DNA from: Candidatus Aenigmatarchaeota archaeon
GTDB lineage: Archaea > Aenigmatarchaeota > Aenigmatarchaeia > JACPZZ01
DNA: 37,596 nt
Direction: 5' to 3'
Assembly (NCBI GenBank): GCA_016195275.1
Contig: JACPZZ010000021.1
Coordinates: forward strand, 1 to 37,596
Below the pieces are notes generated by a model that made no database searches, was not told where the DNA came from, and saw nothing but the letters and a program-made list of their open reading frames with translations. A program made the position numbers and the translations under genes. Of this stretch, positions 8,351 to 23,392 are shown in pieces. How positions within the stretch are numbered: the stretch's first letter is position 1; every line of letters begins with the position of its first letter.

Positions 8351-8461
8351 TAGCCCCGGGCGGATTCGAACCGCCGTCCCCAGGTTACTCCATTTTTACT
8401 CCAGAGCCTGATGTGCTTTGTCGTGATCTTGAAATCACTTTGGCCGCTGCACTACGGGGCT
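8351..8461 (-). tRNA. Intron-containing tRNA, best read as tRNA-Gln(CUG), with an additional D-loop insert
   Basis: AGCCCCG/CGGGGCT acceptor plus discriminator A; T-arm GGCGG-TTCGAAT-CCGCC; anticodon stem TCAGG/CCTGG; spliced loop CUCUGGA; D-stem GTGC/GCAC. Confidence 0.82.
8386..8400 (-). other. 15-nt tRNA intron at canonical position 37/38 (AGTAAAAATGGAGTA)
   Basis: BHB model: outer helix TCAGG/CCTGG, 4-bp helix CTCT/GGAG, bulges GGA and TAA. Confidence 0.7.
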
Positions 8462-22198: not shown

Positions 22199-23392
22199 AT
22201 GTTTACTTGTTACAAATTCAGATTATACCCATCAAATGACCAAGAGCGAAAGCTTTTGTGGGTTCTGGAAAAATGCCGGTTCTTATACAACAAACTTCTA
22301 GAAAACATGAATAACAACAAAACAAGCAGAAGAGAATCGCAACACACGATTCTAATCATAAAGAAAGAAAACCCGGAACTCTGCAAAATTTATTCGAAAG
22401 TACTTCAATATGAAAACTGGAGGCTATTTTCTAATTTGCACTCGTTGTATATGCGAAAGAGCAGAGGCAAAAAAGCAGGCAAGCTACGTTTCAAAGGTAA
22501 GCAATGGTTCAAATCATTTACGTATAGCCAATCCGGGTTTACTTTCATAAAAAATAACACAAGATACGATAAATTACGACTTTCTAAAATCGGTGAGGTA
22601 CCATTGATAATGCATAGAGAAGTGGAAGGGGAAATTAAACAGCTGACTGTAAAAAAACAGTCTTCGGGTAAGTGGTTCGTTTTGATAATTTCAGAGGTTA
22701 CAAAACAGACTAATGATGTGCAAAAAATAGACAGGGTAGGTATAGATCTGGGAACGATGAATTATGCTTATGACAGCGACGGGAATCATTTTGAAAATCC
22801 TAAAAATCTTGACGGATCAATTGAAAAATTAAAGCGGGAGCAAAGACAGTTATCAAGAAAAGTGAGAGGTTCTAAAAATTGGAGAAAACATAAAATAAAA
22901 GTAGCGCGGACACATGAAAACATTGTTTCTAGAAGAACAGATTTTCTTCACAAGTTATCTGGGTACTACGTGAATAGATATGGTTTTATCGCAGTTGAAA
23001 ACCTGCGAATGTCGGGTATGGTGAGACATCCACGCCTTTCTAAATCAATTTCAGACGCTTCATGGTCTCGTTTTATAACAATGCTCGAATACAAGGCTGA
23101 AAGAGCTGGTATTCGGGTAGTGAAGGTTGAACCAAGAAACACCTCGCAAAATTGTTCTGGTTGTGGAAGTACCGTGACCAAAAGGCTATGGGTAAGAACC
23201 CACGCCTGTCTGCAATGCGGCCTTACAATCGACCGAGATTACAATTCCGCGATAAACATACTGAATAAAGCACTACTGCCGGAACGGCAGGAAGTTACGC
23301 CTGTGGAGATTGGGCCTCTACTCAACAATGAGCAAGTTCGGTCACGGAAGCAGGAACTTGAAGAAAACAAAAATCTCACACACCGGATCTAA
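22199..23392 (+). CDS. tnpB: IS200/IS605-family TnpB RNA-guided nuclease, apparently intact
   Basis: RuvC motifs [17 protein letters not shown], zinc finger [37 protein letters not shown]. Confidence 0.93.
23276..23290 (+). other. Hairpin CTGCCG-GAA-CGGCAG inside the 3' end of tnpB
   Basis: Perfect 6-bp stem, located where TnpB omegaRNA scaffolds commonly overlap the CDS end. Confidence 0.4.

Follow-up and report, generated by a model that had tools for sequence, protein, structure and literature searches.

A tRNA-Gln(CUG) gene of an aenigmatarchaeote with a probable noncanonical intron in the D-loop, and apparent introns of the same architecture in rtcB

The window, by which we mean the whole 37,596-nt stretch of DNA analysed, is contig C29 of a metagenome-assembled genome of Candidatus Aenigmatarchaeota (G000; 1.07 Mb, 83% complete; its congeners are G001-G004), and it contains a tRNA gene interrupted in both the D-loop and the anticodon loop. 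Elsewhere in the window, positions 22199-23389 of the plus strand encode an IS605-type transposon-associated protein (OrfB/TnpB with a Cas12f1-like TNB domain). The tRNA gene lies on the minus strand at 8351-8461 and was recovered in a search over the window with the Rfam family RF00005 (44.8 bits, E=1.6e-6); the alignment runs end to end from 8461 to 8351, covers 71 of the 71 model positions and places the surplus positions within the D- and anticodon loops. ARAGORN found no gene in the window; given the isolated unspliced gene it returned nothing or, in intron mode, a tRNA-Phe, and only once both inserts were taken out did it call tRNA-Gln(ctg), with no intron. The cloverleaf with anticodon CUG that ARAGORN and the general Rfam tRNA model support after intron removal upholds the isotype proposed in the initial annotation. 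The 83% complete host assembly yielded this Gln(CUG) gene and no other. The parts of the gene are as follows.

8351-8461, minus strand: the entire pre-tRNA-Gln(CUG) gene of 111 nt, which does not encode CCA (Rfam RF00005, and ARAGORN after removal of both inserts)
8440-8461, minus strand: exon 1, AGCCCCGTAGTGCAGCGGCCAA, from the 5' strand of the acceptor stem to A21; the same 22-mer occurs in Gln(UUG) of all congeners and in loci L053 and L054
8417-8439, minus strand: probable noncanonical intron at 21/22, AGTGATTTCAAGATCACGACAAA, 23 nt; missing from Gln(UUG) of G001 and G002, in a register common to 20 DPANN inserts
Parts of the 21/22 intron, minus strand: one bulge base; hairpin at 8423-8438; GACA at 8419-8422, opposite exon GGCC at 8442-8445; final two bases at 8417-8418
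8401-8416, minus strand: exon 2, GCACATCAGGCTCTGG, with anticodon CUG at 8402-8404 (sequence; ARAGORN fold of the spliced form)
8386-8400, minus strand: canonical intron at 37/38, AGTAAAAATGGAGTA, 15 nt (sequence; fold; missing from the G003 gene, L053)
8351-8385, minus strand: exon 3, ACCTGGGGACGGCGGTTCGAATCCGCCCGGGGCTA, from A38 to the discriminator (sequence; T-arm and acceptor pairs in the Rfam alignment)

At 37/38, the 15 nt at 8386-8400 interrupt a loop CUCUGGA with anticodon CUG, exactly as had been described. GGAG (8388-8391) pairs with C32-U35 (8403-8406) at all four positions, one of them a G.U pair; GG^A and UA^A form the bulges, and the predicted fold of the pre-tRNA forms the same CUCU/GGAG helix. 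In the gene of G003 (L053), which otherwise matches, the anticodon loop CTCTGGA is uninterrupted. The helix, the bulges and this intron-free relative confirm the earlier reading of a canonical bulge-helix-bulge (BHB) intron: position, a 4-bp central helix with the anticodon region and two 3-nt bulges are those of canonical archaeal tRNA introns, from which this one differs in being very short (15 nt) and in having an inner helix of two pairs only.

The insert in the D-arm had been described as a 22-nt excess, representing either a second, noncanonical intron or an expanded D-loop, with a hairpin GTGAT-TTCAAG-ATCAC and a direct ctttg repeat taken as the excision unit. The hairpin (8423-8438) and the repeats are indeed there, and the extent had to be revised: taking out the 23 nt at 8417-8439, between A21 and G22, leaves GTGCAGCGGCCAAGCAC, which is letter for letter the D-arm of the Gln(UUG) genes of G001 and G002 (L059, L060), both of which have no D-loop insert, whereas excision of 22 nt leaves one surplus A relative to this congener D-arm. 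The repeat does not define the excised segment; CAAAG is simply present at either end of the intron.

Exact restoration of an intronless relative's sequence favours the intron half of the earlier alternative. Opposite exon GGCC, the insert offers GACA, which gives two of four pairs and one C.A mismatch; the strict 4-bp central helix is thus not formed, which excludes the strict form only. Relaxed BHB motifs are known, and the copy in the window, with GACA instead of GGCA, is, to judge from its letters, a relaxed motif in a weak form. The minimum-free-energy fold of the pre-tRNA, which forms the 37/38 helix, lacks the central helix of the D-loop, and this counts against an intron. One could accordingly suppose that only the 37/38 intron is spliced and that the D-loop insert is kept, giving a tRNA-Gln with an extra D-loop hairpin whose mature form retains GUGAUUUCAAGAUCAC; the poor helix, the stable hairpin into which the insert folds on its own and the recurrence of the same weak GACA in Gln(CUG) of G004 all speak for it. 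Yet the insert of G003 makes three central pairs (GGC/GCC) and that of Gln(UUG) four in the same register, the intronless congeners have a normal 9-nt D-loop, and in shuffles of the window's insert alone an inner helix of at least five pairs in that register arose with P of about 0.003.

A broader comparison bears on the same point. When genome contigs were scanned with the 22-nt 5' exon, 78 stretches were recovered, almost exclusively from records of DPANN archaea; many of these Gln genes run without interruption over 72 nt, and an insert at the 21/22 junction is present in 19. We assembled 20 distinct DPANN tRNA-Gln inserts, the window's included, and read them in one register, anchored on the exon: GGCC of the exon, a bulge AA^N, the hairpin, a tetranucleotide opposite GGCC, two further bases and, beyond the second ^, exon again. 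At least three central pairs are present in 18 of the 20 (shuffle mean 2.4) and at least three inner pairs in 17 (shuffle mean 1.1), both together being seen in 15 (shuffle mean 0.13). The observed pairing counts were reached by 0 of 5000 shuffles, a figure that is not a strict probability since the inserts are related and the best-pairing 3' exon start was taken where several were possible. The signal was lost when other registers were tried, and the register stays constant while sequence and length (18 to 48 nt) vary, a range easier to reconcile with an element that is excised than with a structural part. Both in the set of 20 and in the window's insert alone, the hairpin and bulges fall so that cuts would lie between bulge bases 2 and 3; this register is, at the level of sequence, the geometry of archaeal BHB introns. 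An expanded D-loop, in view of this common splice register and of the intronless congeners, was demoted from main reading to rival, and we consider retention of the insert unlikely. As its pairing and its relatives suggest, a noncanonical archaeal tRNA intron is the most likely identity of the D-loop insert.

Within the genus, both Gln genes of G000, G003 and G004 begin with GTGCAGCGGCCAA, which an insert separates from the 3' strand of the D-stem. The second Gln gene of the host is the following.

G000, contig C9, 12258-12452, minus strand: tRNA-Gln(UUG), L058, with three inserts, at 21/22, 37/38 and 53/54

Read by hand, all three of these inserts have four central pairs. The Gln(UUG) genes L056 and L057 likewise bear three inserts apiece at 21/22, 37/38 and 53/54; L059 has those at 37/38 and 53/54 only, L060 that at 37/38 only, and the 53/54 insert of Gln(UUG) forms a perfect CGGC/GCCG helix. 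Several other tRNA genes of the host genome exceed the length expected for uninterrupted genes. The D-loop inserts of the two Gln genes differ from each other in G000 and G004; in G003 those of Gln(CUG) (L053) and Gln(UUG) (L056) are identical despite different upstream flanks, an identity that may reflect transfer or gene conversion from one isoacceptor gene to the other. Intron gains and losses cannot be ordered, because the tree of endonuclease genes of the five congeners is mostly unresolved and groups only G002 with G004 (91/94).

The locus is thus very probably a functional tRNA-Gln(CUG) gene with two protein-spliced introns, a 15-nt one at 37/38 and a noncanonical 23-nt one at 21/22, a reading for which the sequences directly supply the anatomy, the intronless relatives, the common register, and genes for a catalytic endonuclease and for RtcB. 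Removal of 23 nt and 15 nt leaves a textbook tRNA-Gln(CUG), with a D-arm letter-identical to L059 and L060 and an anticodon loop identical to that of the G003 gene. We infer that the gene is transcribed, cleaved and ligated and that the C.A mismatch in the central helix is tolerated. Within the transcript each intron would fold back into a hairpin; the splicing endonuclease would cut on both sides between the second and third bulge nucleotides, at GGCCAA^A...AA^GCAC in the D-loop and CUCUGG^A...UA^A at 37/38, and an RtcB-type ligase would join the exons into a normal 73-nt tRNA. Besides the weak central helix, two observations count against this scheme: the sole endonuclease gene found has no loop of the kind tied to relaxed substrates, and the host's own rtcB is both interrupted and, near the start, 89 nt short. 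That the locus is a decaying pseudogene or an assembly artefact, as the metagenomic origin of an 83% complete genome and the failure of ARAGORN on the unspliced sequence might suggest, is very improbable given that every stem is intact, that no other Gln(CUG) gene turned up in the host genome and that the homologous gene and homologous D-loop inserts occur in the separate assemblies of G003 and G004.

The candidate splicing machinery of the host comprises an endonuclease gene and, described below, rtcB.

L052, 1156-1797 (contig C15), plus strand: splicing endonuclease gene (214 aa) with PF02778 and PF01974 domains

The predicted endonuclease is of the catalytic kind, and a PF01974 search found one such gene in each of the five congeners; elsewhere in the class, families with tandem or fused endonuclease genes occur. 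Searches with PF01974 and PF02778 found no second subunit in the 83% complete host genome; a further PF02778 candidate on contig C5 (E=0.014) was rejected, the match sitting in an unrelated protein. In sequence alignments the enzyme has no insertion relative to M. jannaschii EndA (1a79) at the place of the Crenarchaea- and ARMAN-specific loops and is gapless between the catalytic Tyr and His relative to N. equitans NEQ205, so that the loop with a conserved lysine that marks broad-specificity catalytic subunits was not found. The lysine of a YGK motif, conserved in the congeners and replaced by Asn in M. jannaschii, adjoins the ARMAN-2 loop lysine K161 in the alignment, a proximity that we regard as a lead only. 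Since loop-bearing endonucleases have been tied to diverse introns (PMC6379350, PMC12397907) and a single loop-less gene is seen here, the genus may be an exception to that association; incompleteness of the assembly or a diverged partner could also account for the pattern.

The ligase gene of the host is itself interrupted.

L190, 1408-2886 (G000, contig C11, 32550-33908), minus strand: rtcB, RNA ligase gene, with three in-frame TGA codons

Compared with its congeners, the host rtcB has a 21-nt insert at MPDGH^SGYGFP and a 33-nt insert at GFDI^NCG; G003 has an insert at the first site only and G004 at neither. The rtcB frame of G002 is free of stops, and the G002 segment did not align with the congeners. 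Recoding of TGA was ruled out, all three codons lying inside the two inserts missing from G004. Relative to G004 and G003, the host gene also lacks 89 nt near its 5' end (L190, near 2860, minus strand), which shifts the frame; a deletion, a pseudogene or an assembly error would each explain this gap. Among the 104 genomes of the class with rtcB that were examined, we delimited 17 inserts in 14 genomes (L190, L193, L204-L208, L211-L217), nine exactly at the first site, three more a few nucleotides past it and five at the second. Left out of the count were the open in-frame site 1 inserts of L210, L217 and L219, as well as L209 and L218 (the latter masked at that site). The inserts carry frame-breaking stops or lengths, the latter not always multiples of three, and are missing from G004 and many other relatives. 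Fifteen of the 17 have at least three central and at least three inner pairs, against 0.16 in shuffles, a control that leans towards the intron hypothesis, the junctions having been chosen by motif restoration and pairing (and, for L190 site 2, L205 and L208, set by hand against intact homologues). From this pairing, the rtcB inserts are apparently small pre-mRNA introns of the same architecture as the tRNA introns. A different kind of interruption is seen in G013, G022, G038, G059, G065, G089 and others, where rtcB frames of about 900-1000 aa have a split RtcB match, as expected for inteins.

Both kinds of intron have counterparts elsewhere. The noncanonical tRNA introns described in Crenarchaeota and Nanoarchaeota (Marck and Grosjean; Sugahara et al.; review PMC4090602) are likewise short, of BHB type, located outside 37/38 and often found beside a canonical intron in one gene, whereas the present one is from Aenigmatarchaeota, sits at 21/22 in a tRNA-Gln, has a weak central helix and belongs to a host with an apparently single endonuclease gene lacking the specificity loop. 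The list of positions in PMC4090602 names 20/21 and 22/23 and is open-ended ('etc.'); 21/22 may have been recorded elsewhere. The documented case of archaeal pre-mRNA introns is cbf5 of Crenarchaeota (PMC2738675), which the rtcB inserts resemble in being BHB-type, in interrupting a protein-coding gene and in restoring the frame upon removal; they differ in affecting a ligase gene in another lineage, at two sites at active-site codons, and are known from sequence alone. Our literature search, the scope of which left out most subscription journals, found no report of introns in archaeal rtcB. The tRNA gene thus belongs with the known noncanonical archaeal tRNA introns, the rtcB inserts being the greater surprise.

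The gene probably extends noncanonical tRNA introns to Aenigmatarchaeota, its D-loop site in tRNA-Gln, 21/22, being found again in several DPANN groups, and it shows that the tRNA finder used (ARAGORN) missed or misnamed an interrupted gene. With it one can also test whether relaxed introns require a specialised endonuclease loop. We lean slightly towards a single splicing system in Aenigmatarchaeota that would act on tRNA introns and on introns of the form GGYC-AN^A...GGCA-AN^ in RtcB mRNA, in this genus by way of a single-gene, loop-less endonuclease; if this is true, production of the ligase would itself depend on splicing.
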